Source: Echinarachnius parma
Lineage: Eukaryota; Echinodermata; Echinoidea; Clypeasteroida; Echinarachniidae
Direction: 5' to 3'
Length of the DNA: 64,000 bases
Assembly: GCA_037951105.1 (NCBI GenBank)
Contig: JBAMJV010008926.1
Coordinates: forward strand, 1 to 64,000
Position numbers and translations under genes: made by a program. Each line of letters begins with the position of its first letter. Within the stretch, counting starts at the first letter, position 1. This document shows positions 2,869 through 62,300 of this stretch, piece by piece. The notes beneath the pieces are model-generated. The model did not search any database, was not told where the DNA came from, and saw only the letters and a list, made by a program, of their open reading frames with translations.

Positions 2869-3057
2869 ATGGCAACCGAAGTGAGAGGGCCGGGAGGCAT
2901 GGCATCCATCTTCGAGCTGACCAAGGAGATAAAGATGGACCCCGACAATGCCCTGTTACTTGCGGAGAGGTCCGAGTGCTTCCGGATAGTCCAACAATAC
3001 TACCATGCGGTCAAGGATGCAGACCGGATCATCAGTGTCAGGCCCAAATGGTATAAA
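2869..3057 (+). CDS. TPR gene exon 1 (aa 1-63)
   Basis: Starts ATGGCAACC and ends at TGGTATAAA before the donor GTAAGT, phase 0. It encodes the N-terminus and the first TPR-like helix pair. Two decayed copies of this exon follow it directly. Confidence 0.8.
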
Positions 3058-6000
3058 GTAAGTATCTAGTCAGATGAATAGGGGAGGGGGGGGGGGGGTG
3101 TAAGCTGACCAAAGGGATTGAGATGGGCCCAGATAATGTCCTTTTACTTGCGGAGAGGTCTGAGTGCTTCGGGATAGTCCAGCAGCAGTACTAAGATGCG
3201 GTCAAAGATGCTGACCGAATCATCAGTGTCAGGCCCAATGGTACAAAGTAAATTTAGTCAGATGAATGGGGGAGGGGGTGTCAGCTAACAGACCAAAAGG
3301 ATGGGTGATGGACCCAGACAATGCCTTGTTACTTGGGGAGAGGTCCGAGTACATGCTTCTGGTTAGTCCCGCAGTACTACCATGCAGTCAAAGATGCTGA
3401 CCGGATCATCGGTGTCGGGTCCAAATGGTACAAAGGAAGTAAACCCTGGGATGGGGGTTTGGGGGGGGGGGGGGGCATGTCAGCATGACATGCTCTGTAT
3501 TTTATTATTTTCCACCTTTGGGCTATTCCACAAAGGATAATTCACACTCTCTTTCTTTAGAGAGAAGTTGTCAATAAGATTTCTTTCCCATGACATTAAG
3601 CCTGAGTCATGTCGGATATATTCGGAACCGGGTCCCGATAAACTTTTACCGGTCGGGAACCGGTATCCCGATAAATTTTTACCATCGAAACTCGGACGGG
3701 TAAAATCACGCAATCGTGCAAGCATCGGCAAAAATGCACTGTTTGGGGCTTATATTGCTCTTTTTATATGCAAATAACATAACAAATACTGAGGCTTTTA
3801 TGAATTTACATATCAATCTTTATGGGAAAATAGTTACAGACTATCCAGAATTAACTCAGTTTTGCAAGAAAAGTATTTTTTCCGAAGTAAATTGGACCTA
3901 GAAATTGATCGTTCAGCATTACGCCACACGTTTCACAGAAACAGAAACTTCGAGCCGCTGTTTCATGCATATCGCTCGTATACTTTGCGTGCAGGTTACG
4001 GGTCTTTTTTCTTAAGCGAGATCCTTCCGCGACAGAGCTACGTTAATTCATCCGCCATACATGTAGCTGTTTTTTATCGATATTTTGCGTAATTGTTTTC
4101 ATTGTTTTGGGGCTCATTTTTGTTTCTGTTCAGCTATCAAACGCCATGAAATCCTGTAAGTAGAATATCAAAACATTTTAAAATGTTGCAAATGACCAAA
4201 ATACGTATTTTTAGCCACTTTTTGAATGCACTGGCTCATCAGCTGGATCATACGAAGATCCATCAGACAACTCCCCTGGAGTATCGGACTAACTTTGTGT
4301 GCACATCCGCCAACAATATCGTTCAAATGACTAGCAATTTTGCGCTTCCTGTTCAATTTCTGACTGTCAAACAAAGTAACGAACCAAGAATTTCTCGAAA
4401 ATAACCACTCTTTAAAGTAAATGATATCAATTGCCCCGTTTTTACTTGAATTCCGCTACATTAAGTGATAATCTTAATTTCTTTTTTAACATTTTATTTT
4501 TAAAATTTTTTTTTTCGGGGCACCGTTACCGATATAACGAAACCGGGTCCCGATTGAAACAGTCGGTAACCGGTGTGATCGACCGAACCGACTCAGCCTT
4601 ACATGACATACCACTAGGGCAAACACATTAGCACAGGAAAGAATAGGATTCAACTCTTTAAAACAAAAATTTTGTAGAGGAGGTTTTAATGAGCGTCACT
4701 CACGTTACGCATTTTTACCCCTGTAAATTTTCAATGAACTTTGCATGAAAACTATAACACTTCAGAGCAAATTATGTTGATGCAACTTGCTATTACTTCT
4801 ATATACACTACTCACAACAAGTAAGTACCCCCCTAGCATTTTTATGCCTCTGCAACGAAGTAGCCGGAGGCATTATGTTTTCGGGTTGTCCGTCCGTCCG
4901 TCCGTACGTCTGTCCGTACGTCCGTCCGTCCGTACGTCCCGTTCTCGTGATCGCGTTATCTCAAGAACCAATTAACGGATTTTCACCAAACTTGGGTCAT
5001 GTATGTATCTTGGGGGGCCAATGATCTGATTTAATTTTGGGGTCATGAGGTCAAAGGTCAAAGGTCACAGAGCTCATTATATATGCAAAAATAGCTCGTG
5101 ATCGCGTTATCTCAAGAACGGATTGACAGATTCTGACCAAACTTGGTACATGTATGTATCTTGGGGGGCCAATGATCTGATTAGATTTTGGGGTCATGAG
5201 GTCAAAGGTCAAAGGTCACAGAGCTCATTATATATGCAAAAATAGCTCGTGATCGTGTTATCTCAAGAACGGATTGACTGATTCTGACCAAACTTGGTAC
5301 ATGTATGTATCTTGGGGGGCCAATGATCTGATTAGATTTTGGGGTCATGAGGTCAAAGGTCACAGAGCTCATTATATATATATGCAAAAATAGCTTGTGA
5401 TCGCGTTATCTCAAGAAGGGATCAATTCTGACCAAACTTGGTACATGTATGTTCCTTGGAGAGCCAATGAACTGATTAGATTTTGGGGGTCATGAGGTCA
5501 AAGGTCAAAGGGCTCATTATATGTAAAAGTAGCTTGAGATTGGAAATCTCAAGAACTGAATATCAGATTTCAATCCAACTTGATACCTGAATGTATAATA
5601 GGGAACAATTGTAGTCATTAGATTTTGGAGTCATGAGGGCAAAGGTCAAGGTCACTTATAGCTCATAATTGTGATACGTCAAGATCTAAAAGACAGAGTA
5701 CCATCAAAATTGAGTTGACAGAATTAATTCTGTGTACATGTTGATTTGGGCTTGACATAAATAAATTGCGTAATGGCGGAGGCATCATTTTCGACTGCGC
5801 GCAGTCGAAGATCCATCTAGTTTCATATATCTCAAAAAGTATTTCACCAATTTTGAGCATTCAAACGGTAATGGATGCGCAATTGTCTTACGCACAATGT
5901 GAGTGGTAAATGGTTGCCATATCATTACGTTTTCATCATCAAAAAATGAATTTTCTAAAACAAAGTGCCAAAAAAAAGTTGCACTTTCAGTTTTATTTGG

Positions 6001-9000
6001 CATAGTGGGTACATTTTGTATACGAGTAAACATCTTTATTGAAGATTACCCGACACACAAATATATTATGTAATCCACTACTACTGTTGCATTGTTCTTA
6101 GTGACAAAAGCATGCATTTTTCTAAAACAATATCCTTTCAATATGAAATTGTTGGGGATTAGAATGGCCGAAGTCATCTCCTGTTTTCATCTTTATTGGA
6201 GTTGGCCTAATTCACTAATCTGTTATGTAATTCAGTACTACTGCTGCATTGTTCACAGTTCAAAAGCTTACTCGTGTACAAAATGTACCCACTATGCCAA
6301 AAAAACTGAAAGTGCAACTTTTTTTTGGGCACTTTGTTTTTAGAAAATTCATTTTTTGATGATGAAAACGTTACGCTATGGCAACCATTTACCACTCACA
6401 TTGTGCGTAAGAGAATTACGCATCCATTACCGTTTGAATGATCAAAATCGGTGAAATACTTTTTGAGATATATTAAAACATACTAGGGGGGTACTTACTT
6501 GTTGTGAGTAGTGTATATATTTGTTATGCCTCCGCAACAAAGTAGCCGGAGGCATTTGTTTTCGGGTTGTCCGTCTGTCCGTACGTCCTGTTCTCGCGAT
6601 CGGGTTATCTCAAGAACCGATAGACGGATTTTCACCAAACTTAGTTCATGTATGTATCTTGGGGTGTCAATGAACTGACTAGATTTTGGGGTCATAAGGT
6701 CAAAGGTCAAGGTCACAGGGCTTATTAAATATGCAAAAATAGCTCGTGATCGCGTTATCTCAAGAACCGATGGACGGATCCTCACCAAACATGTATGTAT
6801 CTTGAGGAGCTGAATAACTGATTAGATTTCGGGGTCATGAGGTCAAAGGTCAAAGGTCTCGATATATATATGCTAAATAAGCTTGTTTGAAAATTCACAA
6901 GAACTGAATGTCAGATTTCAATAAAACTTGGTACCTGAATGTATGTCAGGATGCCATTGTAGCCATCAGATGTTGGGGTCATGAGGGCAAAGGTCAAGGT
7001 CACAGGACTCATTATGCCAAAATAGCTTGTAATTGCAATATCTCAAGAACCAGTTCACAAATAACCATCAAACTTGGTACGTATTTGTATCTTGGGGAGC
7101 CAATAGATTTATAAGATTTTGGGGTCATTATGTCAAAGGTCAAGGTCACAGCTCATATATATGGAAAAATAGCTCATAATTGTGATATATCAGATCTGGT
7201 ATATAGATTACTATGAAAATTGAGTTGACAAATTCAGTGCATGTTAATTTGGGCTATATAAATCGCGCAATGGCGTCATTTTCGACTGCGCGCATTCGAA
7301 GATCCATCTAGTTGTTTTTTTTGTTGGGGGAGGAGGGGGGATTTGTTTGGCATTTCGTGGATTCAATCACTCGAGCTTCAATGTTTATTTTCACTGTTAC
7401 ACATACTTAACCTTTTGTCTGTACATTATATTTCTATCTTTTCTCCTTGTTTATAGGGGTACTACTTGAAAGGCCTCGCCCTTCATGGTGCAGGGAATTA
7501 CAAGTCTGCACTAGAGACTTTCGAGGTAATGAAAATCATTGGGAATTGTCTTTGTTTATCACCCCACTTGACTCACAAATAACCAAATCCCACCTCTATG
7601 GTGGGAATGCCAATGTCAATAAAAAAATGTTTGCTCTAAAATCATATTGTTGTTTGTATTTTTTTTTAGAAGATGGCCAGATGATTTATACTGATTTATT
7701 ACAAATAATTAACATAATATGAACAAAGGTTTGGTTAGAATTCTCAGTAATTAAATAGTTTAATTACAAAATTACATGGGCTGCGATATTAAAACTGCTT
7801 AGCTCTGCCCTGTCTAGAACAAGCACCAAGATTTACCATACTTGTTAGTAAAATGTGCAACTAATTGAATATATTTTCATGTTGCAAATTAGTAATAAAC
7901 AATAGTCTAGTAAGTCTGTGTGTGCAGATATTGTCACAATAGCTCATTACCATTTTGTTGCATCTTTGTATGGTATTGCATTCAAACAACTTCAATTGTT
8001 TACAGCAACTCAAACGTGCATTGAGCATCCAGTGTTTTACCTAATTTAATTTAAAGGTAAACATTCCATCATAACTTAATTTTAGTTCTCACATTTCTTC
8101 CTTTTTAAAATTTTTATTAGGATGGGCTTGAATACAGTTCTAATGAGCACTTAATCACAGCAATGCAGAATGCAAACAGAGGATTATTTCGGAGCAGGCT
8201 CAGTAAGTTTCTTGATTCTTTTTAAATTGAACCCCGGCCATCCCATTTTTGATGCCTCCGCCAACAAAGTGGCCAGAGGCATTATGTTTTTCAGGGTTGT
8301 CCGTCCATCCATCCCTACTTGCGTCCAATTTTTGTTCTTGCGATATCTTGAGAACCGGTTGACGGATCAATTTGAAACTTTGTCTGTGTGTACATAATAG
8401 GGTGACAATGATCTGATTAAATTTAGGGGTCATGAAGTTAAAGGTCAAGGCTCATATGTATTTGTGATATCTCAAGAACCAGTTAACAAATTACCATCAA
8501 ACTTGGTACCTGTATGTATTGTGGGGAGTTTGTGATTTGTTCATTTTGTTATTAAATGAACCAAGTTAATGGTAACTTCTGATGCTGTACAGTTAGGATT
8601 GGGGAAAACGACAATGGGAAGCTGCTGATGGAGTGGCATTATAAAAGCATAAATTACTAGGTATGGCATATACATTGAGTTTAGTTTGCTCTACTGAACT
8701 GGAAGCCCTAAAGTCCAACAGTTCCCCATTTTATAGTGATCAAAACAACCTGTTGTTGCCAATTTGTATATTGCGGCAGGGTAGGAAGAACTGTAGCTTG
8801 TCAAGTAAGAAAATCTAAAGTTTTATGTTTACAAAATGATTTGTTTTATTTGATACAGATAGAAAATTTTACGCTGCTGGTGGTTTCTTACTGGGTTGTG
8901 GTGTTGGCTTTCTTGCCCTGTGTGTCAACGACTTCTTTCTGCCCAAACCAGTTGTTGCCGTAAGTAACCAATGATTTTGGAATTTATGTTTTATTTTTAA

Positions 9001-10390: not shown

Positions 10391-10626
10391 TAAGAAATTT
10401 GCCACATGGTTTATATTAAATTATTATTAATCCATTGTCTATGCTATTTTCGAGCACATAATATATGAACTCCATCTGACTGTTATCTTTTAAGAGAAAA
10501 TGGTTTGATTTGTTGATGAGAAGTGATTGGAAGATCAGTAGTAAAACAATTTATATTTGAAGGGTATCAATTTTTAAAATGATTTCTACGAAAGTTTGTC
10601 TTTTATTGTGAAGATTTTGATATATA

Positions 10627-12077: not shown

Positions 12078-12709
12078 ACCGTAAAACTCCGTGTATAAGA
12101 CGCACTTTTTTTCTGTCGGAAAATGTTCAAAGTGGGGGGTGCGTCTTATACACAGGTACAGCAAAAAAAAAAAAAAAAAAAAAAAACACTTTTTTTTTTT
12201 TTTTTTTTTTTGGGGGGGGGGGGGGGACACCCTGTAGTCATGTTGAATGTGTATTTAACACATGGTTTAGGGCATAACAAGAGCTTGCTGTCAGTTGCAG
12301 CATTCAGCAATATATACCTTTTTCTCACACACAAAATATTGGTTACAGATGTAAAAATTGCAAGTTTATTGAGCAGTAATACTGCTGCTAATGAATATTC
12401 ATATTTAGTGAGCACCAGTGTTACTGCTCAATAAATGTGCAATTTGTGTACTAAAACCACTATTTTTACTGTGAGAAAATGATGTTGATGAATGCTACAT
12501 TCAACATTAAGCTATTGTCATGCCCTAGACCAGTGGTATAAGCATTCCAACATCACTTCAGGGTCTTTAAAACAACTACAGGGTGTCAAATAAAAAAAAT
12601 TAAAAAATAAAATTTACAAAACGATTTTTTTTTTTTTTTTTTTTTTGCTGTGAAAGTTAGGGGTGCGTTTTATACACAAGTGCGTCTTATACACGGAGTT
12701 TTACGGTAA
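12078..12709. mobile_element. MITE with CCGTAAAACTCCGTGTATAA ends
   Basis: The terminal inverted repeat CCGTAAAACTCCGTGTATAA has its exact complement at the right end, flanked by TTA and TAA. Subterminal GTGCGTCTTATACAC recurs several times. The interior has consecutive poly(A), poly(T) and poly(G) runs (12162-12226) and a second poly(T) run near 12625. Non-coding. Confidence 0.8.
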
Positions 12710-15250: not shown

Positions 15251-15984
15251 GTAGATGGATCTTCGATTGCGCGCAATCGAAAATTATGCCTCCGCTATTA
15301 CGCGATTTTAATATCAAGCCCAAATTAACATGCACTGATTTAATTTTTAAAATATTTTTCATAGTCCTGTGACCTTGACCATATGACCCCAATCTTTGAT
15401 GGCTCCCTAAAAAACATTCAGGTACCAAGTTTGATTGAAATCTGACATTTAGTTCTTGAGATTTTGGCATTACAAGCTTTTTTGCATGTATAATGAGTCC
15501 CGTGACCTTGACCTCAACCTCATGACCCTAACATTTTATGGCTACGTTGACTCTTTATGATACATTCAGGTACAGAGTTTGATTGAAATCTGACATTCAG
15601 TTCTTGAAATTTTGCCATTACAAGCCATTTTCGCATACATATTGAGTCCTGTGACCTTGACCTTTGACCCCCCAAATCTAATCAGATCAGTGGCACCCCG
15701 ATATGTACACTCATACCAAGTTTGAATTCTATCCGTCAACCAGTTCTTGAGATATCGCAAGAACGAGGCATTTTTGCACATACATGGAGTCCTGTGACCT
15801 TGACCTTTGACCTCATGACCCCTAAAATCTAATCAGATCATTGTCACCCCAATATGTACACTCATACCAAGTTTGAAATTGATCCGTCAAATGGTTCTTG
15901 AGATATCGCGAGAACGAAAACGGGACGGACGGACGGACAACCCGAAAACATAATGCCTCCGGACCACTTCGTTGGCGGAGGCAT
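15251..15984 (-). mobile_element. Helitron2/Helentron-like element, copy C
   Basis: Reverse orientation. The 5' hairpin is at the right (ATGCCTCCGCCAACGAAG), with the TCCGTCCG microsatellite and TCTCAAGAAC repeats; the 3' palindrome (CGATTGCGCGCAATCG) is at the left. The 3' terminus reads CATCTACATGTAG instead of CATCTAG, an apparent 6-base change. The internal asymmetric repeat (GCGGAGGCAT) is retained. Confidence 0.65.
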
Positions 15985-16149
15985 AAAAACATTAATAATC
16001 AACGAGTAGGCGAACGAACCTCAAAATCCAATACGTCACTGATGCCATACTATACGTTTCTCGTGAAAATCAAACTACTAAGTAAAACCATACATGAAAT
16101 ATAAACATATTAAATCATTATATTCTTCCTATTTGCTCGCTACAAAAAT

Positions 16150-16222: not shown

Positions 16223-16794
16223 TAATGACACAGCTGAACCATAAACTCTATACAATACATTATATTTTAGGGAATACAAGTATTGGTCCTACAAAACCCA
16301 CATCTACCAGACAACCATGATTCAACAATGGAAATGTCCTTAGATGCAAATACTTCTTTGCTTTCAGAGCATATATAAAGCATGCTGGACCTGTCAGTAC
16401 AGAGGTGAAAAGTCTCTGACTGAACATTTTCTATTTCAAAGAAGACAATACTGCTTCAGAAGTGAGGCCACTGGCTTGCAAAGTCCTCTGTTAGAATTTG
16501 CCTAGGAGCTGATACTTCGAAAACATCAATATACCTAGTTCACCTTCTTTCAGAGGTCCCTGTCTGTGACAAGTACTTTAATCTCTCAGTTAGTAGATAT
16601 TGGACCAAATAGTTATGTTACTCAGTCCTCAAAATATGACTAAATAGTAACCACACTAAACAGTCATGTCCTTAGGCTTAGCCTAGGCTCGGTCATCAGT
16701 ATAATTCTTTCTGTCCCTCAGACCTCACAATATGACTGAATAGTTCTGTCCTTTGGTCACAAGAATAAACCTATTAAGTAATTCTGTCCTTTGG

Positions 16795-16870
16795 TCATCA
16801 GAACTTGACCAAATAGTTCTGACCCTCATCTTCTACCTGGTCAAACACCCACTTCCTCTTACACCGGCAG
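16795..16870 (-). pseudogene. partial copy of ARL14EP-like exon 3
   Basis: The about 60 bases from GAACTTGACC to ACACCGGCA repeat the 3' part of the coding exon at 16979-17183 almost exactly, shifted by about 180 bases. The match stops in the cysteine-rich region. It lies downstream of the stop codon, in the 3' UTR or beyond. The surrounding 16640-16985 repeats CTTTGGTCATCAGAA several times. Confidence 0.8.
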
Positions 16871-16978
16871 ACAAGAATGAATAGCTCTCTCCTTCGGTCA
16901 TCAGAATTAGCCTAATAATAGTTCTGTCCTTTGGTCATCAGAATCAAACTAAATTAATCTGTCCATAGCCTTTGGTCA

Positions 16979-19478
<2,500 letters not shown>

Positions 19479-23308: not shown

Positions 23309-35865
<12,557 letters not shown>

Positions 35866-42743: not shown

Positions 42744-44300
42744 GCAAACTCCTGCGTCAGCTGATGCGGGAGGGCGACGCCCGAGGCTTAGCGATTAGCC
42801 AACAGCAGGTGCCTTGAAATGTCAGCCATCCAAGAGAAACCGCTGGCCGCCGATGATATCACCGGTACAAGCTCTGGTCACACCAGTTCTCCTCAACCAA
42901 ACTATCCATGTGTCTCCGGCTACCCTCAGGCCAGGTCAATCGTCAGCTACACGACCATGTACCCGACATGTATCAACGGGGGCAGCAGCTGCCAGCCCCA
43001 GCCTCCCAGCGACCAAAACAACCTGACAACTGAAAACAGGCTACAAGCAGTGGCGAACATCCTGCAGACTTACCCCTGTTTTTGCGGGTACCCCTGTTTT
43101 CGCGGGTAGTAACCGCCAAGCGCCACCACCAGCCTGTTACGATAAGCTCTGATCCCCCGGTTGATGTGGCGACACCAACAAATGGAGTACTAGCGGCAGC
43201 CGCCCCAACTCAGGAGGAACAATTCCATCAGTCCACCTGTACAGGAGTCACATAATTACCCACAAGCCCTGACCCCTACATCAGATCAATGAGCAACTGG
43301 CGTTGCATTATCAGATAACCAACCAGGAGGATGAGATTGACCAACAGGCTGCCTACAACGACCAGTACCTTTATCAACAGGCTGCAGATTTCCAACGCGC
43401 GGGACACACCCAACATGTGGCGGCCAACTTCCAACAGCCTGCCAAAACAACCTGGCAACTGCCTGCTTGGCCGGTAGCCACTTCTTTCGTCGCGCCACAC
43501 CAGTACCGGGGATAAGTTCTGATCCCCCGGTTAACGAGCAACTGGCGTTGCATTATTGGATAATACAACGTGCGTTGTGGGAGATAGCTCAACAGGAAGC
43601 TGAGAACCAACAGGCTGCCTACAACGACCAGTCCCATTACCAACAGGCTGCGGATTTCCAACCCGCGCGACACACCCAACATGTGGCGGCCAACTTCCAA
43701 CAGCCTGCCAAAACAACCTGGCAACTGCCTGCTTGGCCGGTAGCCGCTTCTTCCGTCGCGCCACAGCAGTACCGGGGATAAGTTCTGATCCCCCGGTTAA
43801 CGAGCAACTGGCGTTGCATTATTGGAGTATACAACGTGCGTTGTGGGAGATAGCCCAACAGGAAGCTGAGAACCAACAGGCTGCCTACAACGACCAGTCC
43901 CATTACCAACAGGCTGCGGATTTCCAACCCGCGCGACACACCGAACATGCGGCGGAAAACTTCCAACAGCCTGCTACCGCCCACCAGCCAATCAGATACT
44001 ACCAGGTTGATAAATTTTTACAGCAACAGTCATCATCAACCCGGCAGATACTATCAGCCGCAGCAGCAACAACATGAGAAGGAGGATCCGTATGCTGATG
44101 ATGCAGGTACTATCACAAGCATCGTCCAGTTGCCAAGTCCGCCAGCTTCAAGTCAGACGACTTACCAGTACCAGCCGTGCCCACCGCCAAGGACTGGCCA
44201 CCAAGGATCCAGCGATGTCCAGCCACATCCACCACAGGGGCAGTACTACCCACGGCCACCAAGAACACCGAAAAGGCACAATAAAGGTAGGGCGGCTATA
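42744..44300 (+). other. glutamine/proline-rich region with 266-base tandem repeats
   Basis: Open frames in all three phases encode low-complexity segments (QQAADFQPARHTQHVAANFQ, and further on HQPGRYYQPQQQQ, PPPRTGHQG). Repeat units start at 43511 and 43777, exactly 266 bases apart, with an older relative before them. 266 is not divisible by three, so each unit is read in a new frame and each ends QYRG-stop. The region could be 3' exons of the Myb/SANT-like gene, with an acceptor near 42740, or decayed coding repeats. I cannot assemble a continuous protein. Confidence 0.5.
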
Positions 44301-44995: not shown

Positions 44996-45194
44996 AACTG
45001 GCGACGAGGATGGGATGACCGCAGACGAGAGAAACCCCCTGGTCTCCACGAGGCAACCCACCGACGGCGCTGAGCTGGGAGTAGACTGGATGCTCTGCCG
45101 GGAACGACGGCGCAGAGAGGACCTCTGCAGCGAACGACGGCGCAGAGAGGACTAGTCTGCAGGGTTCACGCCGATTACAGAACTTTTGCAGCAG

Positions 45195-45430
45195 ACAGCT
45201 CGGGTAGATTGTCCGTGCTAGAAACCGAGCTATGCTGATGACAGCTCGGATGGATGGTGTGCGCCGACAACTCGGATAGATAACCGTGCTGGTGACCGAG
45301 CTCTTTGAAGACAGCTCGGATAGGTGACCTGCGAAGAACAGCTCGGAAAGATTATCCGTGCTGATGACCGAGCTTTGTTGATGACAGCTCGGGAATAGAT
45401 GACCTGCACTAACGACAGCTCGGAAAGACT
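45195..45430 (+). repeat. AGCTCGG repeat array in the Gypsy leader
   Basis: GACAGCTCGG or a one-base variant (for example GACAACTCGG) occurs about eight times. The complementary ACCGAGCT occurs four times between them, so the leader RNA would form a series of stem-loops upstream of gag. Confidence 0.8.
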
Positions 45431-45610
45431 TCCGAACTGATTTTTGTCTAGAACTGTGAAGAACTCTAGAACTGAAGAACTGAATCAACTGTTATCAATC
45501 AGAGTATTGACTGGTTGTAAGTGTTCAGTAAGTTAGTGTTCAGTATCTTAGAGTAAGTTGTAACTTACCTTTTTTCCCCCAGTACATTTCTCTCAACAGC
45601 CTTTGTAACG

Positions 45611-46760
45611 ATGGCCGAGGCAATGACGAAGATGTTAGAGACCCTTACCAGTGTGATGCAGGGACTAAATGTACAGAAGGCTCCACCGCCATTTAAGTTG
45701 GGCAAGTTCAAGGGTTCGCCACAGGTGGTTGGAGATTTGTCGCTGCAGGAGTGGTTGGATAGTTTTGACTGCTATTGTCGCCACTACAACCTAGATGATG
45801 CAGCTAAGGCACAGTCTCTGGTAGATCATCTGGCAGGAGTGGCCAAGGAAGAAGTGCTGTGCAGAGAGGATAGTATCCTCAAGGATGCGGACCAGTTGGT
45901 TGCCGTGCTGCGGTCTTTGTTTGGCACATTAGATACCGTTCAGTCTTTAACATCGGAATTCCACAGTAGGACGCAGCACCGTGGTGAGACGATGGCCGAT
46001 TACAGCAGGGCACTGATGCGACTCTACACCAGGATGGAGAAGGCTGCATTGAGTAGTGGAGAAAGGCAGGCTTTAGCACAGTTGAGAGATACATCCCTGA
46101 AAGAGAGATTTGTGACCGGTAGCAACCAGGCCTGGATGCAACGGGAGCTGCGCAGGATAGAGTTGGCAGCCAAGGGAAAGACATTCCTTCAGATGAGGGA
46201 GGACGTGCTGGAGTTCTTCAGAGGTCAGGAATCAGAGGTGAAGACAATTCCCATTAAAGAGGTGTACAGTAGTCCTGATGTGCAGATGGTAACCACAACG
46301 AAAGCCGATGGTGACTTGAAGGGTGAGCTGAAATCCCTGAAGGAAGATGTGGCATCGCTCAGGAGGTGTGTGGAAGCATTGGTGGACAGCAAGATGAATG
46401 CTGGGAGGTCTCCACAGAAGAGGAAATGCCGCTGTTTCAACTGTGGTATGACGGGGCACATGAGGAATGAGTGTGAGGAGGAGACGCTGTGCTTCATCTG
46501 CAAAGGGCGAGGACACATTAGCCGAGAGTGTCCACAGAAGCAGCAGCCGAGTCCCCAGCCTTCTTCATCAACAAATGGTTCACCTCCGCCTGGAGCCAAG
46601 AGAGGGACGATGCCTCAGCACCAAGTTACACCAGAGTTCGCTGAACGTTTTGTTGCACCCAGTCCCAGGGGGTCAGTACGCATTGGTGGTGTAGACATCG
46701 GATGTATTTTCGACACGGGAGCAGAGGCTTCAATCATTCCAGCATCTGTGTACCACAAGC
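45611..46760 (+). CDS. Gypsy gag and start of protease
   Basis: The ATG opens a frame with a retrotransposon Gag core (PFKLGKFKG, EWLDSFDCYC, then TMADYSRALMRLYTRME). Two CCHC zinc knuckles follow (CFNCGMTGHMRNEC and CFICKGRGHISREC), and then the protease start, with DTGAEASIIPASVYHK. The frame is open for about 383 residues until a MITE interrupts it after the protease active-site motif. Gag forms the particle and the knuckles bind RNA. The extension to 47014 is MITE sequence. Confidence 0.85.
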
Positions 46761-47161
46761 AGAGATGCCAACCTTCACAAACCCAAAAAAGTATTCTGAG
46801 AGGTAAAAAACAGTATTTTGAACCCCAAAAAAAGTATTTTTTAGAGCTGCCAACCTTTAGAGGCAAAAAAACATTTTTTCGCGAAGCAAATTCGCGCAGC
46901 AAAAATACCCTTTACGCACACGTTAATATAAAAGTTGGTTCACACCAGCGTTTTTATAAGTTTGTTCGGTTTATTTGTGTTATATTTAAAATTTGTATCT
47001 GGAGTAATAGTTAATCAGGGTTCAACGTAAATTTTTTTGCCGTTTTCCGATCGTTTCTATAGGGAGTACCAGAAGAAAAAAAAAAAAAAAAAAACGTACT
47101 GCCGTATTTTGCGTGAAAAAACGTAACAAATACGGCAAAAACGGAACGGTTGGCATCTCTG
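46760..47161. mobile_element. MITE with CAGAGATGCCAACC ends, 6-bp duplication
   Basis: CAGAGATGCCAACC at the left and GGTTGGCATCTCTG at the right. CACAAG occurs directly on both sides (46754-46759 and 47162-47167). The end sequence resembles hAT elements, though those usually duplicate 8 bases. It contains a 20-base poly(A) run. It cuts the Gypsy protease frame. Confidence 0.85.
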
Positions 47162-47164
47162 CAC

Positions 47165-47917
47165 AAGTGTTTGAAGGAGAAGTTGGGTGGCCTACAGCAA
47201 TAGGCGGGAGTGTTCCTGAACGTGGTTGGTGTTGGCGGCATTGAAGTGCCGATAGAAGGATGTATTGAGGTGCCAATCGAGATTAGAGGGCAAGTACTAC
47301 AGGGAGGATTCCTGGTAGCGGCCGATAGGGTATGAAGTGGAACAGCATCGGGGGAACCAATTCTGCTAGGATGCAACATCTTGCGAAAGTTGGAAGGGTT
47401 TGTGATGGATCTTGGTCACAGAACTGATGCACCCAGAGCCATGGAGAGCAACGGTTGCCCATTAGCAGTGAGGACGGGACGGTTAGAGGTTTTCCCATCT
47501 TATGCAGTTAGAAGGGTGATATGCCAAGTGGAGGGGAACAGCATTACTTCAGGAGCAGAAGTCTTGGTTGGAGAGTTAGAGGTGCCGAGTGCAGTTGAAG
47601 GTGGTCAACAGTTGAGGGGGGATGTTGAGATACACCTACCGCCTGACACGCATGTTGCTGAGGCTGTGGAGCGAAGAGGAGAACTGTGTGATGTTGTGGT
47701 TGAGGGACCCAACTCATCGGCGAGGAGAGTGGAGAGGATGTCTGCGGAGCCGGTAGAGGTGGTTTCTTGTCTTCAGCCAGGTGTGGAGATGGAATGTTGG
47801 ACTGAGGATCGAACATTTGATCTGGGGGAGAGCAGTGTGGTAGATGGACCCAAAGTTAGAGTTAAAAAGAGAGTGTTGCTGAAGAACAGAGAGGACGGCG
47901 ACGATGAGCCACATTGA
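47165..47917 (+). pseudogene. Gypsy protease remainder and spacer, broken
   Basis: After the MITE the frame resumes with motifs such as VGGIEVPIEG and GEPILLGCNILRKLEGFVMD, the usual end of a Gypsy protease. It has stop codons near 47203 and 47333. From 47381 a 178-residue open stretch of acidic, valine-rich sequence leads to a stop at 47917. Confidence 0.65.
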
Positions 47918-50306: not shown

Positions 50307-53300
50307 CTGTATTGAAAAAAAGAAAGAAAAAAAGGACATGATATATTATAACAAAATGATATTAAAATATTCACAATAGTCAACTATGAATGATAAGACT
50401 TCTGTGTTACACCAGCAGATGATGAATTGAACTGAACTTAAAAGTTTTGCTGGGCATGGCTGGATCAATTAATTCTTCTATATTTATAAGGGAAAATTTA
50501 TTTATGCATGATTTGTTGATTTATTACCTATATTTTGTTCCGCTCATGACTTCCTTGAAACACACTACTGCCTGACGAGTGAATAGATAGCTGTGCCCCC
50601 TGCCCCCTGGATGCGCCCCCACACCCCCCCCCCCCCCCCTCCCTAAGTGAATTTTTACCTGTCTTTTTTCCGCTTATGACTGCGAAACCCACTGCTAGCA
50701 CCTCCAGAGGGCTTGGACTGGCTGGACCGATGCTGCTGCCTCTGGTAGCTGAGGTGGGGGGATTTGGTCAGCTCTTGGGGTAGGACCACGCCTAGGGGCC
50801 TCAACATGGTGGTGAACTGGAGGAAGAGCTGTGCGGATCATTTTAGTCAAGGAAAGTCATAATTTTATCAAAAAGTAATATGGAGTTCTGACATAATACA
50901 TAAATAATACAAAATGTTTAAAAATGTTTCAAAACATAAATCAATCAGAAATATACAAATGTATCAGTACATGTACAAAGTAACCAAGGAAAGATAATAA
51001 AGAGTAGTACCATGTGTCAAGGAAACTGTTGCAGAAAAAGTTTTAATAGATTATAAAGTTGAAATTAAAGGGATCTAGTAAAATTGTCCAAATCCTCAAA
51101 ACTTACTTGGAACTCTAGCGGTTCTCTCATGGGACAGGCTTAAGTTTTTTAATTTTTTATTTCCCTTTCATTAAAAAGATATTTACATTTGAAGTGTTCA
51201 GATTTTAAACTATCTACTGATAGTCGTAACCATGTTCTTAGTCTGTGCAAAAAGTTTGTGAATATCACTTTGCATTTTTGCTCATTACTCAGCCATATAA
51301 CATCCATTTAACACAAAAATTGCCACATCACTGAGTGGACATATCAGATCACAACAATACACTTTGTATCAACCACTCACCACTTTTTGCACATGTCAAC
51401 AAAGTTATCTGATCCCTTTAATTGCAATTCAGAACATAATTATGCAAATTAGGACCAATCAGAATTGTGCTTTTAGTCACATGATCTGACTTGCAATTAA
51501 CTGCAACTTAACAATCAATTGCAACTTTTTCTCTAACTGATGGGGGTCCAGTGGGTGGAGTCCCTGGAAACTTTCAAATTTTATCCTGGGGGTGGAGGTT
51601 CAGGCTCAGGAGCCGCCCCCCCCCCCCCCCCCCCCCCCTTGCTATGCCAGTGACAACAATGATGCATTTATTTTGAAGAAAAGTATTACTTTGATAATTT
51701 TTAATTTTTTTTATAAAGGGTGACATATTCTTATTTTAACACTTTTCATCCCACACTTCCAACCTTTACTACCTGGGTAAAAACTTTCAGAGCTGAAAAT
51801 CGACTTTGTTGTTACATCTCCACAAAGACAGACGAATATGTCCTCCATTACTGGTATTCATGGTGGAACTCTGTGCTGTAAGAGTTGTAGATGACCCACT
51901 CAGTCAAGGATAGATTAACATGTACAACTATATTTTAATAGAAATGATTGCAAATATCTGTTGAGGGGTTAATTGAAAAACAAACAAATAACTTAATTGA
52001 ACTGAATTGAATTACTATTATTTTATTACCGTGGATCACTTTGATCAAATTATCTTTTTATCTTTGGTCTACATAGGACAAGAAAATAAATATTAAACCC
52101 GATGGAGGAAGTATAAACTAGCATCTAAAATTGGAAACGACTAGTACTGCATGCACTATGTTTTGAATGCAAATGAAATTTGTTGGTTTCATCATACATT
52201 TTTGCAAAACTGTATTGTGTTAAGGACATGAAACAACACCTCATCAAAAAATGATTCACATCAAATATGCAAGGATATTAATTTTGTTAATACAATCGAA
52301 CAACATTTGTTGCTGTTGATGATTCAAGTTGAAAGTTTATAGCAATACAAAATAATACATTTATACAATTCAACTAGTTAATCAAGATTAAACATCTTCT
52401 AGATAAATTACTAATGATGCCGGTCTAGGTCCTTATACTAAAATATTGCTATTTCATGAAATAAAAAGGATATTTTTGCTGTTGTTGTTGATGAAGGTCA
52501 TTGCAGTTCCATTGGTGCCCAGACGTCCCGTTCTCCCGATCTGGTGGAAATCAAAAAGAAAAACAGAAGAAATATAAAAGGATTTTAAAAAAAATAATCA
52601 TGTAAATATATTCATAATGCAACAGGGGGGTGTTGCATAAAGAGGTGCATTCAATTGCAAATATGTGACAAAACGCAAGTCAGAAAATATGTGCATTTGA
52701 GCCAATCAGATTTGTGCTTTTAGGCACATTTTTTGACTTGCGATCGATCGCAACTCTCCAGGCAACATCCAACAAAGAAAGCTTGTTGTACAAAAATGTA
52801 ATGAAATTACATGAAGGACTAGTACCGATTATACTGTATGTACCAATAGCTATAAAACAATGGTTGTTCTAACCTGTTGTATATAGTCTTCAACAGTGGC
52901 CGGCATGTCAAAGTTGATGACCATCCTGACCCCAGGGAAGTCTATACTCCTCCCCAGCACCCCTGTACTGACCAGCACCTGGTATGCCCCTTCATATAAC
53001 ACCCTCCCCCATAACGCCCCCCCCCCCCCCATTTTAAACCCATTCAGGACTAGTACCAATACTACTCGGGATGGGCTAATAGATAATGCATCATACATAA
53101 AAACAATAGCTTGAAACAATCTTTATTCTAACCTGGTGAATGTAGTCTTCCACCGAGGCTGGCATATCAAAGTTGATGACTATTATGTTCTGGAAAACTA
53201 AGTATTCGGGAGACACTAATGAATAACTAGTAGGCAAGAAGGTATCGGGTTTCAAGTGTGTAACTTTATTGCGCAAAGCGCACCGCGCACGCTACAAGCA

Positions 53301-56300
53301 TCACCTGTTACATTCATGTAAGTTGCCTAGCAACCTTACAATACAGTATCGTATAGATCTCTCTATTATCAATACACTACACTGCTTCCCCTTCAAAAAG
53401 TGCTTTACCTTTCAATGCACCTTAGCACAAATGAAGTAATATCGATTCTATATCTTTCATCACATGAATCATTTTGAATAACATCTGTTTTCTGCGTTAA
53501 CTTTCTTTTTACAACTATGGAGCCTAAACATATGCTACTGTGATCTAAGTAATTCCATATCTAGTACAATCACAGTTCTAAAGTTATTAATACCATCATA
53601 AAAGTATTCAACTTCCTTATACAGTCATTTACCCTGTATACTTCATATATGATGTTATATCTATAAATTCAATGAAAACTGTTCCTTCCTTAATGTGTAA
53701 TCCACAACAGAACTTCAATGAAACTTGTCCCATTATAAAGACCTTAAAATCCAAAACAAAACTTGACACCTTTGTCATATCATAACTAGCCTCCTCTTTA
53801 ATTTAATACCAATGTTAAGGTACCACATAATTATATCCATACTTTCCCTTCCTTCTCACAAATCATGACCATATAGTCATGCAAGTCAAAGAACAAATAA
53901 TGTTCATGGGAAAATGCGAACTCGCATCCACCTACAAACCAATTGCATCAAAAATTACAAGTTAGACGTATGCTTAAAATCGCCTCTAAAAGTACTAATT
54001 GGTTGGTTAAACAAGCATTTTAAAAGTTCACTTATCAAAAGATATTAAAATGTATATACCGTTACATCAAAGATAACTTGTTCTTTCAATGTCAGTGCAT
54101 AAACAAATAAAATTTTCCACATTTCCTTTGTTAACAATTTGCGTCTACATGTCTCTTCATTTCCATTTCAGAGACCAATTTGTTTAACACAAAATAAACA
54201 AACATTACTTATAATTCAACCTGGTGGTAGGTTTGCGGAGTCTCTGTGACCGCCTAAGGTTTGGACTTTGTTTTGGTGTGGTCCCCGACTGCACGTCTGT
54301 GCTTGGACCAGCTACATCTTTGATTGGGGATTTCCTTGTTCCCACATCTATACCATCTTGGATAGAAACAACATCAAATGAATCTTCAAAGGTTCCGTCA
54401 TCACCAGATTCACGCAAACCATCATCACGTTTTAACATGTGGTTGACATGTACACTTCTGACCTTGTCACCAATCTCTACAAGATACCGTCTCGTACCAC
54501 AAACTGCCACAACTGTGCCAATCTCCCATTTGTCTGTTTTGTGAGGAGGGCTAAGAACCCCAACTTTTATCTCCTACCAAAAAGCCTTGTTCCTTCCTAC
54601 TTCCACGGAAGTGTTTCTTTTGACTTGCTTGTTTCTCTTCAATTTTGGGAGTCAAATCTGGCAATACCAAACTAAGCCTTGTTCTCAGTCTTCTCTTCAT
54701 CAACAACTCTGCGGGAGTGTACCCTGTTGTGGTATGTGGTGTGGTACGGTACTTCAACAAAAAACTTGCTAGTCTGTGTTTCATATTGAACTTAGAACTA
54801 CCATCAAACACCTGTTTCTTGAGAGCTTCTTTCACTGACCTCACTGACCTTTCTGCTGCACCATTCGAGGCAGGATGATATGGTGGTACAAGAATGTGTT
54901 TAACACCATTTTTCTTCATGAACACTTCAAATGCTGCAGCACGTAATTGTGGGCCATTATCAGAAACTAGCTCTTCAGGCAAACCATGACATGCACAAAT
55001 CAAACGCAACTCATTGATCGTCCTTTCTGTGGTTGTGTTTGTACCCATGTGTATCACTTCAATCCACTTGGAGTCACTATCAATCAAAACAAGAAAATGA
55101 TCATTTCCGGTCTCACAAAAATCAACATGTACTCTCTGAAAAGGCAGACTTGGCCATCGCCATGTTTCGAGAGGCGATTTTGGTGGTTTGTTTCTAACAC
55201 TCTGACAAACCGAACACGAACCTGAAATGAACTCAATGTCTTTGTCTAGCCCTGGCCAAAACATGAAACCCCTTGCTACTGACTTCATAGCTACAATACC
55301 CGAGTGTTCAGAGTGTAATTCACTCAACAGTCTCTGTTGCAATGATTTGGGGATAATCACTCTATGTCCCCATTTGATACAACCCTGATCACATGACAAT
55401 TCAAATCTCCTATTGTGGTATGGTTTCAGTTCACCAATAGGCATTGTTTCTGACCAACCATTCAATGTTTGTTCATACGCTTGTTTCAGTATTGTGTCTT
55501 TCTGAGTTTCTGCAGCAATCTCTGCTGCGGTTACTGGGAAACTATCGTCTACTACATCAGTTACAAAGATGGCACCCTCTGTGCCTTCATCCGACTCTTC
55601 ATGTGGTAAACGCGATAACGCATCAGCTACCGCGTTCTCCTTCGAACTGAGATACTCGATTGTGTAGTCATACTGCGAAAGTAGGATTGCCCATCTCTGC
55701 ATTCGCGATGCTGCCATGGTAGGAATCGCCATCTTCGGACCCAGTATCTGAAGAAGCGGCTTGTGATCGGTAATCAGCGTGAAGTTTCTGCCAAGAAGGA
55801 ACTGATGAAACTTTTTAATCCCGAAGATAATCGCCAACGCTTCCTTCTCAATCTGCGCGTAATTTCGCTCGCTTTTCGTCAGGGTACGCGATGCGAACGC
55901 TATGGGCTTCTCTTCCCCATTCTCCATCACATGATTGATCACCGCTCCTACACCTATACTTGATGCGTCACATGCTAACTTCAACTTGCGCTTGTTATCG
56001 TAGTGGACTAACAGTGCATCACTGGTTAACATTTTCTTACACTTCGCGTACGCTTCCTGCTGCACCTTTGACCATTGCCACTCTGCCTCCTTTTGCAAAA
56101 GCATGTGGAGAGGCGCTAGCACCGTTGCTAGATCAGGCAAAAATCGCGAATAGAACTGGACCATCCCAAGAAATAAACGCAGCTCACCCACATTCTTCGG
56201 TGCCGGGGCCTTGATGATGGGCTCTATTTTTGATACAAGAGGCTGGAGCCCCTCGCTTGTCACCCGCAACCCCAGGTAAACGACTTCTGATTTGACGAAC

Positions 56301-59300
56301 GCGCACTTGGCTCGCTTCAGCTTAACGTTGTAGTCACTCAGCCGTTGCAGCACCTTGCTCAACACTTCCAAATTTTCCTCCTCGGTTGTCGTCGCCACTA
56401 GAACATCATCTTGGTTGCACAGGCAGTGGGGAATCCCCTTCAGAATTCTGTCCATTGTCGCCTGGAAAATCTTAGGCGATGACTTGATACCATAGGGCAA
56501 TTTTGTGTATGAATACAACCCCATGTGCGTATTGACCGTCAGGTACTGTTGACTTTCGCTATCCAAATTCAACTGGGCGTACGCGTGTGAGAGATCAAGC
56601 TTCGAGAAAACTTTTGTACCCCTAAGCTCCGCATACAAATCCTGCGATGTCGGGAGAGGATACTGCTCATCGTCGACCACCCTATTCACTGTAGTTTTGT
56701 AATCTCCACACAGCCTAACAGTTCCATCTGCTTTGGGCACCACTACTAACGGAGTTGCTCACTCACTGAAGTCAGTCCGCACCAGCACTTTGTTTTTCTC
56801 AAGATTCCGCAGCTCTGCTTCAACTTGCTCCTTGAGCGCGTATGGCACCGGCCTCGGCCGGCAGTACACAGGCGTCGCTCCGTCCTTGATTCTGACGTGC
56901 GCTGTCACTCCTGCTATGCCCTCGTAACTGTCTTCAAACATGTTGCTATGCTTGTGCAGCAGTTCATCCAGTCTTGAATGCACATCCAGCTTGGCATGAA
57001 ATACTTTGCTCCAGTCTAACCGTATCTTGGCAAGCCAGTTCTTCCCCATTAGCGATGGTTTATTCTTGTATGCAGCTACTATGACCGGTAGACGGTACAC
57101 CTTTCCTTTGTTCGTGACACTCGGTTCAAATTGGCCGCAAATATCCAAGGCCTCTCCAGAATACGTCCAACTCTGCACGGACGAAGGGGAATTGAGCGGA
57201 AGTTCTCATCATAAGTATCTTTCCCGATGACAGTGCAATCTGCAGCCGTGTCTATCATCATCGTAATAGGTTTGTCGTGAACCAGCACTTCTGTCTCAAA
57301 GTTTGCATCAGTCCTGTCAGTGGAGTGAACACAATACATGGACATAGACGAATCATCACCATCTTGTCGTAGGTTATGAATTTTCCCTCTGCCACCGCCA
57401 GACTTATTTCTGCACGCTGCTGCAATGTGTCCCTTCATTTTACAGTTGTAACACTGCGCAGACCGAAATGGACAATCTTTCGGCACATGTCCTGACCCCT
57501 GGCATCTGTAGCAGTTCCGATTCTTCCCCTGCTGAGCATGCTGAGGATTGTGCTTGAACTGTTTTGCTTTGTCCTTGAACTTTGACTTCTGTTTATGTGG
57601 AGTATAACTCTTCTGGCTGTGAACACTGGCCGCAGACGCAGACTCCTGCGATCGATGCAACTCGCGAGCATTCTTGGCTGCCATCTCCACCGAAGTCCAA
57701 AGAAGTCACATTCAACAGTCTATTTTGGATTCGTTCATCTTGCAACCCACACACGAATCTATCTCGCAGAGCACGATCCAAAAACTCCCCAAAATTACAG
57801 TGTGTGGATAAGTTCTTGAGAGCAATAATGAAATCACTGATACTCTCACCTTGTCGCTGCTTCCTGGTCCCAAACTTGTAGCTCTCCGCAATCTCCAACG
57901 GTTTCGGATCAAAATGTGACTGCAGAATCCGAATAATATCGTCGAACGTCGCGTCTCTCGCTTTCCTGGGCGCAAGCAAATTCGCAAGTGCGAGGTAAAC
58001 ATCAGTCCCAATTTCAGTCAGTAGAATTGCTTTCTTTCTTCCTTTCGTTTCGTTGTCATCCTCATCGGTTTCATCAATGTTATTTGCGATGAAAAACATC
58101 TCCATTCGCTCAATGTACGATGAAAACGGTTCGCGATCTCTGTCGAAAGAACCGAGCCTTCCGATGTATCCACTGGGCGCCGCCATGTTTGTTTACGTTT
58201 TCGACTCCACTAGAACACGTGACGTGAATGTCCGAAACTGCAACAGTCTATGCGTGCGGTCTCTCCCAACGTGTGTGATACAGCTAGCTATGCACAATTT
58301 AACATGTGCAACTGCCCGAATTTGCCTTGACGTTTCGCCTACAAACGACGATAACTTGGCGGAAAAAATTCTCTGCTTTTCCAAAACTAGTTCATTTTTA
58401 CCGCAAACACTTCCTTATGCCGGGTGTGTTCAATTCCATCTTTGTTACCAATTATTATGTTCTGGAAAACTAAGTATTTGGGAGACACTAATGAATAACT
58501 AGTAGGCAAGAAGGTATCGGGTTTCAAGTGTGTAACTTTATTGCGCAAAGCGCACCGCGCACGCTACAAGCATCACCTGTTACATTCATGTAAGTTGCCT
58601 AGCAACCTTACAATACAGTATCGTATAGATCTCTCTATTATCAATACACTACACTCTCTATTATCAATACACTACAGTACCAATACTACTCGGGATGGGC
58701 TAATAGATAATGCATCATACATAAAAACAATAGCTTGAAACAATCTTTATTCTAACCTGGTGTATATAGTCTTCCACCGAGGCTGGCATATCAAAGTTGA
58801 TGACCATCCTCACGCCAGGTAGGTCAATCCCCCTCCCCAGCACCCCTGTACTGACCATTACCTGGTATGCCCCTTCATCGAACACCCTCCCCCATCCCCC
58901 TTCAACCCATTCAGGACTGTTTCTGAACATTCTCTGACTAGGGTCTACGGAGAGTGCATGCTAAATTAAAATCAAATAATCGTGAATGGGTTAAATAAAT
59001 CTTTGGTCTCACCTGGTGAATGTAGTCTTCCACCGAGGCCGGCATGTCAAAGTTGATGACCATCCGCACTCCTGGAAGGTCAATCCCCCTCCCAAGCACC
59101 CCCGTACTGACCAGCACCTGGTAAGCACCTTCCCTGAACCGCTGTAGGATCTCAGACCGCTGAGTTTGGGGTTTGTCTCCATGGAGAGATGCGGCAGCTA
59201 GCTCACAGCTCTGAATTAGTGAAATAAATTTGATGCATTTCATTTAATGATAACTTTGGTCATTGAGTATGATATAACCTATTCAACTATTGCCGTACTG

Positions 59301-62300
59301 ACCAGCACCTGAATGGCTGTAGGATCTCAGTTCGCTGGATTTGGGGCTTGTCACTGTGGAGAGATGCTGTAGATAGCTCACAGCTCTGCAGTGTTATACA
59401 TATGATTTGAAGAACATTATTTATACAACTTGGCCAATTAGTATATGACAAAGCTAAACAGCATATTTGTGTAAACCAATTACTATCAAGTTGACCAAAA
59501 GGTACACTACATTGAATTAGAAAAATACATTGTACAGTGCCCCTCAGGCTTTTAAAATATACTTATGATAAATAATGATGTATTTTCTTTGGTTATCTAA
59601 GAATCAATACCAATACAAGGAGTTCTGGAACAATTTTCAATATAAACATAAACAAAAAGAAACTTATAATTTTTCACATGGTCATATCTTAAAATCCTGT
59701 CCATCAAAACGATCCAAACTGACACACCGGATTAATTCAATACTCTATTCTAAACAAATGTTAGTAACCAGGCAGTTGCCCAACTAACATAACAGCAAAA
59801 AGCACTGACATGGAACAGCTTCCGGGACCACATGTCACAGAAAGGGACACTTCGCATGTTAATACACACACTCAGAGCAGCTCTACAGGAAGAGTGGAAC
59901 AATCTCCCCCAAGCCTGTATCAGAAACCTGGTGGACAGCATGCGTATCAGATGCACTGAATGCTTCCAAGCACATAGTGGACACACTCACTATTGATGTC
60001 TGTGTTTGGGTAACTGACATTACCTTCATTTAACGTTTTTGTTTACTTCCTCACGTGTCTTAAACTCTGTTCCCGAAATGTCTAGGCTGTGACATGTGAT
60101 ACAGCAAGCGGTTCCATGTCAGTGCATTTTTCAGTTCTGTCAGTAAGGTAACCATTTGGATACTGACATTTTATCAGAGTATAGTATTGAAGTAATCCTG
60201 TGTGTCATTTTGGTTCATTTTGATGGACAGATTTTTAAGATATGACCATGTGAACAATTATAAGTTTCTTTTTGGGCCCAGTGTATATCCATGATTAAGA
60301 AGATATTTGAAAAATTAAAACCCATTATTATTTCATTGTTTACCCTAAGCCAAACCACATCGTTCAAAAGAAATATGGAAACTCCAAGTGATTTTGGATG
60401 AATGTGGCAAAGTTAATGAATCAATTTAAGTTGAAAACACCTTTGTGAATTCCAGCTTACCTTTGCAACAGCCAGTGCTAGAAGATCTGCTCCAGGCTTT
60501 GAATCGACAAACACAATCACAGGAGGCCTGCACAAGATAGACATGCAGAAAAGTAGATCAATAAGTTAAACAAGCTTGAACATCTTTCTTTTTGACATTA
60601 TTTTATTTTGTTGTCTCACATTCAAAACCATTTTCGTTTTTGAAAGCAATTTAAGTATACTTGGAACAAGTTTTTTCAAAACTAAACACTTGCTATAAAA
60701 AGGAGGTGAAAACAAATTATACAATCTCGCCACAAAATAGATACTGATTTTACACAATTAGATCAACATAAAATAATGCAGCATCATACCAATACAGCAA
60801 CAGTTATTGGGTTCAAGCGTACAACTAACTGGCATAGATCTGTAAGCCGTTTCTTCTGTTCAAGTGTTGGGGGGGGGGGGGGGTGATCTGTTCATTTATC
60901 CCTGTGAACAAAAGAAATGTCTGCAGATTATGCCAGTGGCCTTACTGATTAATGTAAATAGTTTTTTTCCACTGTTTTCACAAATGGCAATCGATCAACA
61001 CAAATCATCACACTAAGTAGAAATAAAGAATGTCACTTAAAGCGTTTTTGAAATTCAAAAATGTCAAACAAAATTCTTCTTCTTGGATATATTTTCAAGA
61101 ACGACAAACATTAAGCTACATAGAAATAAAATCATCACCTAAAATGTTTTGGATCTTGAAGGATGGCAAACAACTTCTTCTTCTTGGCAGGATCTTCCAC
61201 CCAGAGTATAACTTGCTTCACTGATGTGCATGGGGTACTTGGCTGCAAGGGGGACCGCAAAAGGACAAGATAAGCACACATTTTATCAATATTTAAGCAG
61301 GCCCATATCATTATATATTCACGAAAATAAGACTAATACAGATTTTTACAATTATATGCACACCACTGGCATGCAGAAAACCCTTAGTTGCTAGTTATCT
61401 GTGAACCTATTTAAAATAGTGTCTTGTTTTGATTTTGGTTTTCCTGAAAATGATATTCCTGAATAAGACAATATCTCTTGTCTCAGTGCTAATGTTGCTT
61501 TTTGCTTGTAACTTTAAAGATGGATATGTTATATCTTTGTGCTAACAGATATGATTCAGGATTGCCAAGCAAGGAGGTAGCCATTTTTTCGATGGAAGAA
61601 GGAATCGTGGCTGATGTGATAATCGTCTGGTATACATCAAGAAAATTATTTACCATGGACAATACACAGAAGAGAAGAAAAATCAATATCTTACCGTGCC
61701 AACAGATATGAAGACAGGGTTGTCGAGTAGGGAGGTAGCCATCTTTTCGATGGAAGAAGGGATGGTTGCTGATGTGAGAATCGTCCGATGAGCATCAGGG
61801 AGATGAATCATGATGTCATAGACCTACATAGGAAATACATTAGAAAATGTGATAGAACGCTTGATGGAAATCAATTAAATTTGTAGTGAATTGCCTCAAA
61901 GGATATTTTTAGGAAATGTTGTAAGTGCCCAATTACTGCAACTAGTAGGCCAACTGCCAAATCAGCATAGAGCATTACAGCTGTTGCCATGGTAGTTACA
62001 CTAATTGAACACTTACAACAGTTGCAAAGAGTTTTATCTAACTAACACCAAGTAGAAAACAAAGAATATTGTCCTACCTGCTGCTGGAATCCAAGCTGCA
62101 GCATAGTATCAACCTCATCCACCACAACCAGCCTCATGTCAGCGAGACTTACACCTGCAAAACAGAGACAATAACAACAATTAAATAATACCAACAACCA
62201 AAAGAAACAGGAAAGGGGGACTCAATGACAGTTTCTCGGCAAGAGCAAGATTTACACCTGAGAAATAGAGACAATTAATAACAGCTTAATTATATACCAA

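Follow-up and report, generated by a model that had tools for sequence, protein, structure and literature searches.

Several described systems come close to what follows. A tandem genomic duplication across an intron-exon boundary made a new intron in the potato RdRp gene (PMC4974935), and vertebrate small nucleolar RNAs (snoRNAs) undergo intragenic duplication into other introns of the same host, one of them, U82, guiding an A of 18S rRNA through an 11-nt guide (PMC2653536). The stretch of DNA analysed here, called the window, is 64 kb long (positions 1 to 64,000 of contig JBAMJV010008926.1 from Echinarachnius parma) and looks like an animal genome. In it, the genes of ATP5F1A, DDX59, ARL14EP and a TPR-like protein carry partial copies of their own exons close to the true ones. 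These copies are explained, with good probability, by small direct tandem duplications of different ages, and most of them look like decaying leftovers.

Comparison of the window with itself gave 162 repeat pairs. The initial annotation, whose exon numbering is kept here, had stated that four genes carry nearby partial duplicates of their exons, and every copy that it listed was recovered in direct orientation. The genes were identified by tblastn with human ATP5F1A, DDX59 and ARL14EP, together with PDB and Pfam matches. For ATP5F1A (+ strand), 10 exons were found by tblastn, the first one weak on its own (23318-23395, E 0.33), and for DDX59 (- strand) 8 exons, two of which are similarly weak (62885-62926, E 0.64; 50688-50837, E 0.008). 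ARL14EP (- strand) and the TPR-like protein gene (+ strand) are represented by two exons each, the TPR assignment being a tentative one drawn from weak Pfam matches below the curated cut-offs. Exon coordinates derive from tblastn and from splice signals read by eye, and are possibly a few bases off.

In ATP5F1A, copies accompany exons 6, 7 and 9, and a piece of exon 8 lies in an upstream intron:

30709-30892, + strand, two upstream partial copies of ATP5F1A exon 6 with the acceptor side kept
30937-31086, + strand, ATP5F1A exon 6, true copy
31764-32036, + strand, first ~120 nt of ATP5F1A exon 7, twice upstream of it in a 174-bp tandem array
32084-32237, + strand, ATP5F1A exon 7, true copy
30165-30231, + strand, 67-bp interior fragment of ATP5F1A exon 8, in intron 4 just upstream of exon 5
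33210-33437, + strand, ATP5F1A exon 8, true exon
34045-34339, + strand, 96-bp tandem array of three units, beginning with the last 7 nt and the donor of ATP5F1A exon 9

The exon 6 pair (30719-30792/30944-31024) is 78% identical, and a further piece of ~26 nt lies near 30864-30889. Both upstream copies of exon 7 are without the native donor, and the first contains a 24-nt deletion and no intact acceptor. The exon 8 fragment is paired at 84% identity (30165-30231/33288-33354), and the alignment covers exon sequence only. The duplication of the exon 9 donor boundary was absent from the list in the initial annotation.

In DDX59, copies accompany the exons of motifs V and III and one further acceptor:

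59013-59210, - strand, DDX59 motif V exon, true copy (taken as 59010-59213 for the tests)
59290-59388, - strand, upstream partial copy of the motif V exon, acceptor side kept, with an internal deletion
58729-58876, - strand, downstream copy of the motif V exon, termed B1, donor side kept
52853-52999, - strand, downstream copy of the motif V exon, termed A1, donor side kept
61698-61822, - strand, DDX59 motif III exon, true copy
61531-61627, - strand, decayed downstream copy of the motif III exon, termed Q, with both splice sites altered
62141-62324, - strand, acceptor region of DDX59 exon 62075-62158, present in duplicate (62141-62218 and an upstream copy, 62244-62324, 79% identical)

The motif V pairs are 85% (58729-58876/58985-59132), 82% (52853-52993/58992-59132) and 84% (59133-59213/59308-59388) identical, and the motif III pair 83% (61531-61627/61686-61785). 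Copy B1 is located within a possible 204-nt open exon, 58757-58960, of phase 0-0 and 52 nt from the true donor. The acceptor duplication 62141-62218/62244-62324, which includes 18 nt of exon, was also missing from the earlier list.

The two remaining genes have downstream copies only:

2869-3058, + strand, exon 1 of the TPR-protein gene, true copy, with the donor GTAAGT (next exon at ~7457-7525)
3103-3441, + strand, 3' part of TPR exon 1, present downstream in two decayed copies (3103-3251 and 3307-3441)
16985-17180, - strand, last coding exon of ARL14EP, true copy
16739-16873, - strand, copy of the final part of the ARL14EP coding sequence, downstream of the true one

Both TPR copies are frameshifted and the first also contains an in-frame stop; the pairs are 80% (2915-3251/3103-3438) and 85% (2934-3064/3307-3441) identical. 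The ARL14EP pair (16739-16873/16917-17054) shows 89% identity, including 82 identical bases in a row. The copy is located in the first ~180 bp past the stop codon, within degenerate ~40-bp repeats (anchors at 16977, 16936, 16899, 16796 and 16758) that resemble the final bases of the coding sequence. Long runs of G or C occur in or beside the duplicated units of TPR and DDX59 (3086-3098, 3461-3475 and 53017-53030), and it is possible that they triggered slippage there.

The copies obey a polarity. In 13 of the 14 copies, the acceptor side is kept and the end missing where the copy lies upstream of the true exon, and the 3' side is kept and the beginning missing where it lies downstream (sign test, 0.0009 by copy and 0.02 over nine events as grouped by the authors, eight of them fitting). 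The exception is the exon 8 fragment, and copy Q is borderline. The two extra boundary duplications, at the ATP5F1A exon 9 donor and the acceptor of DDX59 62075-62158, follow the same rule, and a truncated DDX59 unit (53052-53183), which was excluded from the count, would fit it. None of the 14 copies retains both native splice sites, and many have broken frames or missing ends. Except for the exon 8 fragment, the copies are direct, lie near the true exon and include intron flank. Direct tandem pairs of fixed period are found at ATP5F1A exon 7 (174 bp, held over 2.5 copies in the array 31777-32204 at 96-98% identity), in the TPR gene (188 bp) and at the exon 9 boundary (96 bp).

In the proposed mechanism, the region would gain direct tandem duplications of ~100-260 bp regardless of gene structure, presumably by replication slippage or unequal exchange. 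Where such a duplication crossed an intron-exon boundary, the true exon would stay whole and a partial copy would be left on the intron side, keeping the acceptor side if upstream and the 3' side if downstream. Partial copies could not be spliced as whole exons; being probably neutral, they would be tolerated and then decay, while duplications yielding a whole extra exon may have been lost by selection. Exon copies would stay recognisable longer than intron-intron pairs, since the true exon hardly changes. Further layers may have been added by a SNORD82-like snoRNA, which would have duplicated through four ATP5F1A introns and taken along the beginning of exon 7 in two of these, and by a Ty3/gypsy element, which would have inserted into the DDX59 array.

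Coverage of exons by copies was compared with circular shifts at the level of bases, with the interspersed repeats, the long terminal repeat (LTR) element and 40.0-48.5 kb masked, the mask being partly set by hand. Local direct copies of at least 75% identity cover 800 of 3069 exon bases, against 364 expected (P 0.021). Pairs of 80-90% identity (12 pairs) cover 605 exon bases against 155 expected (P 0.0037), which is 605/3000 exon bases (20%) versus 1396/34895 other unmasked bases (4%), whereas pairs of at least 90% identity cover 128 against 165 expected (P 0.54), or 128/3000 (4.3%) versus 1921/34895 (5.5%). An earlier locus-level permutation, which used 21 exons where the base-level shifts and the boundary check used 22, had found that 8 of 14 loci touch an exon (mean 4.2, P 0.026). 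The exon preference is confined to the older pairs, and the exon pattern therefore appears to be largely an effect of visibility: an exon under constraint and its free copy accumulate differences at a lower rate than two free copies do, and old exon copies outlive old intron pairs for this reason. The advantage of exon pairs in this respect is estimated at ~1.6-fold.

Decay of the copies was assessed in 15 copy-versus-exon comparisons by setting the split between synonymous and nonsynonymous differences against a model in which the copy is free and the exon constrained. Seven comparisons, with five or fewer differences, have no power, and five of the eight informative ones are compatible with neutral decay. 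The other P values are 0.0005 for A1, 0.0018 for B1 and 0.026 for the TPR copy termed c2, and become 0.008, 0.027 and 0.39 upon correction for 15 tests, which leaves A1 and B1 of DDX59 as the only candidates for functional copies. These two have a shared history. Their synonymous/nonsynonymous differences from the true exon are 15.5/4.5 for A1 and 14.2/3.8 for B1, counts that include one donor codon, while the two differ from each other by 10/8, which is close to neutral. All eight coding differences common to A1 and B1 are synonymous, and this may reflect a coding phase of their ancestor. Since the TPR copy c2 has both a stop and a frameshift, a shortage of amino-acid changes can arise in a plainly broken copy.

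Several observations weigh against decaying tandem duplications as the full account. The exon 8 fragment is interior to its exon, 3 kb away from it and not in tandem; copy Q is weakly similar along most of its exon, and its fit to the polarity hangs on BLAST boundaries; the 3.9-fold excess among pairs of 80-90% identity (12 pairs) is greater than the ~1.6-fold estimated for visibility, which leaves an unexplained residue; and in three of the eight informative comparisons, amino-acid changes are fewer than a free copy should have. Some copies might be, or might have been, functional alternative (mutually exclusive) exons, and the best candidate is B1 as the exon 58757-58960, which is open and phase-compatible, with a T-rich acceptor and a GT donor. 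The mainly synonymous differences of A1 and B1 from the true exon, and the 8/8 synonymous ones that they share, speak in the same sense, and a donor-to-branch-point distance of less than 50 bp has been described as a cause of mutually exclusive splicing (PMC5740500). However, the first part of B1 is off the helicase profile, the match beginning at profile position 61 as opposed to 41 in the true exon. Among the 11 AG sites of the interval examined, nine are open, including two in phase 0, so that an open acceptor for B1 is nothing unusual. Together with the near-neutral split between A1 and B1, a similar though smaller bias in the broken TPR copy c2 and the absence of any copy with both native ends among the 14, this makes functional tandem exons very unlikely.

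Duplication tied to the exons themselves, by breakage near splice sites, transcription-linked conflict or RNA-derived reinsertion, would find support in the 605 exon bases under the 80-90% pairs and in the exon 8 fragment, with its alignment restricted to exon sequence, but the pairs of at least 90% identity show no exon preference (P 0.54) and the events number no more than about a dozen. As intron flank is present in most copies, these are of DNA-level origin. Duplication tied to the exons is very unlikely; an exon-seeking mechanism was likewise rejected for lack of support from the young pairs. Just as doubtful is the combined proposal that small duplications arise preferentially at intron-exon boundaries, a nursery of half-exons, and that B1 was once a mutually exclusive alternative exon by virtue of its 52-nt spacing. 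As to the cause, the initial annotation had offered either frequent local tandem duplication, which the direct pairs of fixed period bear out, or haplotype copies wrongly stacked in the assembly. The latter would suit the few pairs that are 96-100% identical over stretches (the exon 7 array, the 82 ARL14EP bases and the flanks of the LTR element), but most exon pairs are only 75-89% identical, which is too low for alleles, and contain frameshifts, deletions or a stop. The units are of small size, the longest unmasked local direct pair having ~350 alignment columns, and their breakpoints lie inside exons; the exon 7 array holds its period across 2.5 copies, and the self-comparison of the window found neither a kilobase-scale direct duplication nor long near-identical stretches. 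Stacking is thus unlikely for most pairs and, as the explanation of the whole pattern, the least probable of those considered.

Besides the small tandem duplications, four introns of ATP5F1A contain copies of a SNORD82-like box C/D snoRNA:

29573-29797, + strand, intron 4, unit in which a SNORD82-like snoRNA (core 29668-29735) comes after the acceptor and first 32 nt of exon 7
31343-31567, + strand, intron 6, second unit of the exon 7 acceptor and first 32 nt followed by the snoRNA (core 31438-31505)
32666-32732, + strand, intron 7, third SNORD82-like snoRNA
33739-33807, + strand, intron 8, fourth SNORD82-like snoRNA

Each core is 67-69 bp long and contains the C, D', C' and D boxes in this order (4/4). 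In pairwise comparison, 66-68 of 67-68 aligned bases are identical with at most 2 gap columns, while the 60-base flanks agree at 52-53/60 positions in the best pair and at fewer in the others. All four match the whole SNORD82 model of Rfam with 28.4-34.1 bits (E 0.005-0.16), and none reaches its gathering score of 43 bits. The same 11-nt guide, AGGGACGTAAT, presumably complementary to the U82 site of 18S rRNA, precedes the D' box in all four. The first 32 nt of exon 7 recur at 29599-29633 (91%) and 31369-31403 (89%), and because two of the snoRNA copies carry them together with the acceptor, the exon 7 fragments at 29.6 and 31.3 kb most plausibly travelled with the duplicated snoRNA as passengers. 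A mobile element as carrier of the ATP5F1A fragments was dropped in favour of this reading. The snoRNA pattern was not found in a scan of viral contigs (0 matches).

The DDX59 copies at 52.9 and 58.7 kb are separated by a retrotransposon:

53186-58653, - strand, Ty3/gypsy LTR retrotransposon with LTRs at 53186-53381 and 58458-58653, reverse transcriptase, RNase H and integrase
53052-53183, - strand, truncated DDX59 unit next to the LTR element, 97.7% identical to 58676-58807

The LTRs are identical at 195 of 196 positions, inside a 99.5% repeat (53181-53383/58453-58655), and the element is young. It also codes for a zinc knuckle, and its enzymes follow the order reverse transcriptase, RNase H, integrase. 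By eye, a purine tract adjoins the left LTR and a site starting with TGG the right one. The element is flanked by a 132-bp direct duplication (53052-53183 and 58676-58807), and no short target-site duplication was seen by eye in the flanks. Since the 99.5% blocks are the LTRs of one element, the exon copies on both sides would once have formed one array, which was probably split by the retrotransposon. The right flank starts where tandem units join, so that insertion into an existing three-unit array with partial loss of a unit fits about as well as a plain 132-bp target-site duplication. Reinsertion of circular DNA, suggested by the 53.1-kb and 58.5-58.8-kb blocks standing in swapped order, was rejected because the 99.5% blocks are LTRs of one retrotransposon. 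Only the right LTR has an exact 23-bp tandem duplication (58631-58676) at its outer end.

Other repeats are found in the window. The 40-48 kb stretch, which is probably a second retroelement, is GC-rich with internal repeats (43313-43974 and 45191-45441) and contains a gag-like open reading frame with PNMA and zinc-knuckle matches (45557-47014, + strand); a second reading frame (47336-47917, + strand) had no match in the domain search. An interspersed family with a ~150-bp tandem core occurs in both orientations at 4839-5828, 6521-7313, 8244-8528, 15252-15990 and 18227-19329, some copies holding a short GTCC/GGAC microsatellite. Four palindromes, perhaps foldback or MITE-like elements, are 94-96% (25212-25615, 17735-17859 and 63592-63697) or 70% (12158-12651) self-complementary, and three of them have sub-threshold RNA-family matches, mostly to microRNA models. 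A match to the U12 minor-spliceosome snRNA (35082-35228, + strand, 31.6 bits versus a gathering score of 53) overlaps the repeat 35030-35185/60284-60429 (73.8%) and is perhaps a U12-derived repeat or due to chance.

The window can thus be described as a series of partial exon duplications of differing ages in housekeeping genes, for the identification of which a simple polarity rule is available. It carries the warning that visibility alone can produce exon enrichment. Gene prediction can be led astray by half-exons, and pieces of exon can be taken along into other introns when an intronic snoRNA duplicates. If the density were true genome-wide, the frequency with which tandem duplications give rise to new exons and introns, or do not, could be measured well in this system.

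The kinds of event are already known (PMC4974935, PMC9013439, PMC2653536). As in potato RdRp, a short tandem duplication spans one boundary and a partial copy lies beside the whole exon, but in potato a new intron was made (PMC4974935), while here no new intron is evident and several genes of one window carry the scars. The snoRNA is like SNORD82 in its C, D', C' and D boxes, its match to the whole Rfam model and its paralogues across introns of one host gene; unlike it, the scores are below gathering, a fragment of a host exon accompanies two of the copies, and the host is ATP5F1A, as opposed to nucleolin in chicken (PMC2653536). The retrotransposon shares with Ty3/gypsy elements the paired LTRs, the order of its enzymes and the zinc knuckle, and differs in the 132-bp flanking duplication seen in place of a short target-site duplication. 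Functional tandem exon duplicates are whole exons, whereas the copies here are partial. The copies do resemble tandem and mutually exclusive exons in their location in a neighbouring intron of the same gene (PMC9013439, PMC5740500). Exon bases with a local copy of at least 80% identity amount to 701/3000 in the window, compared with ~2% in human, 0.08% in fly and 0.06% in worm (PMC9013439), figures obtained by a different method, while the window was singled out for this very feature. The literature on decayed or partial exon copies gives related phenomena, and no claim of being unpublished is made. The density of copies in a window chosen because of it is notable, and compared with these systems the locus shows genome scars of an ordinary kind at an unusual density.

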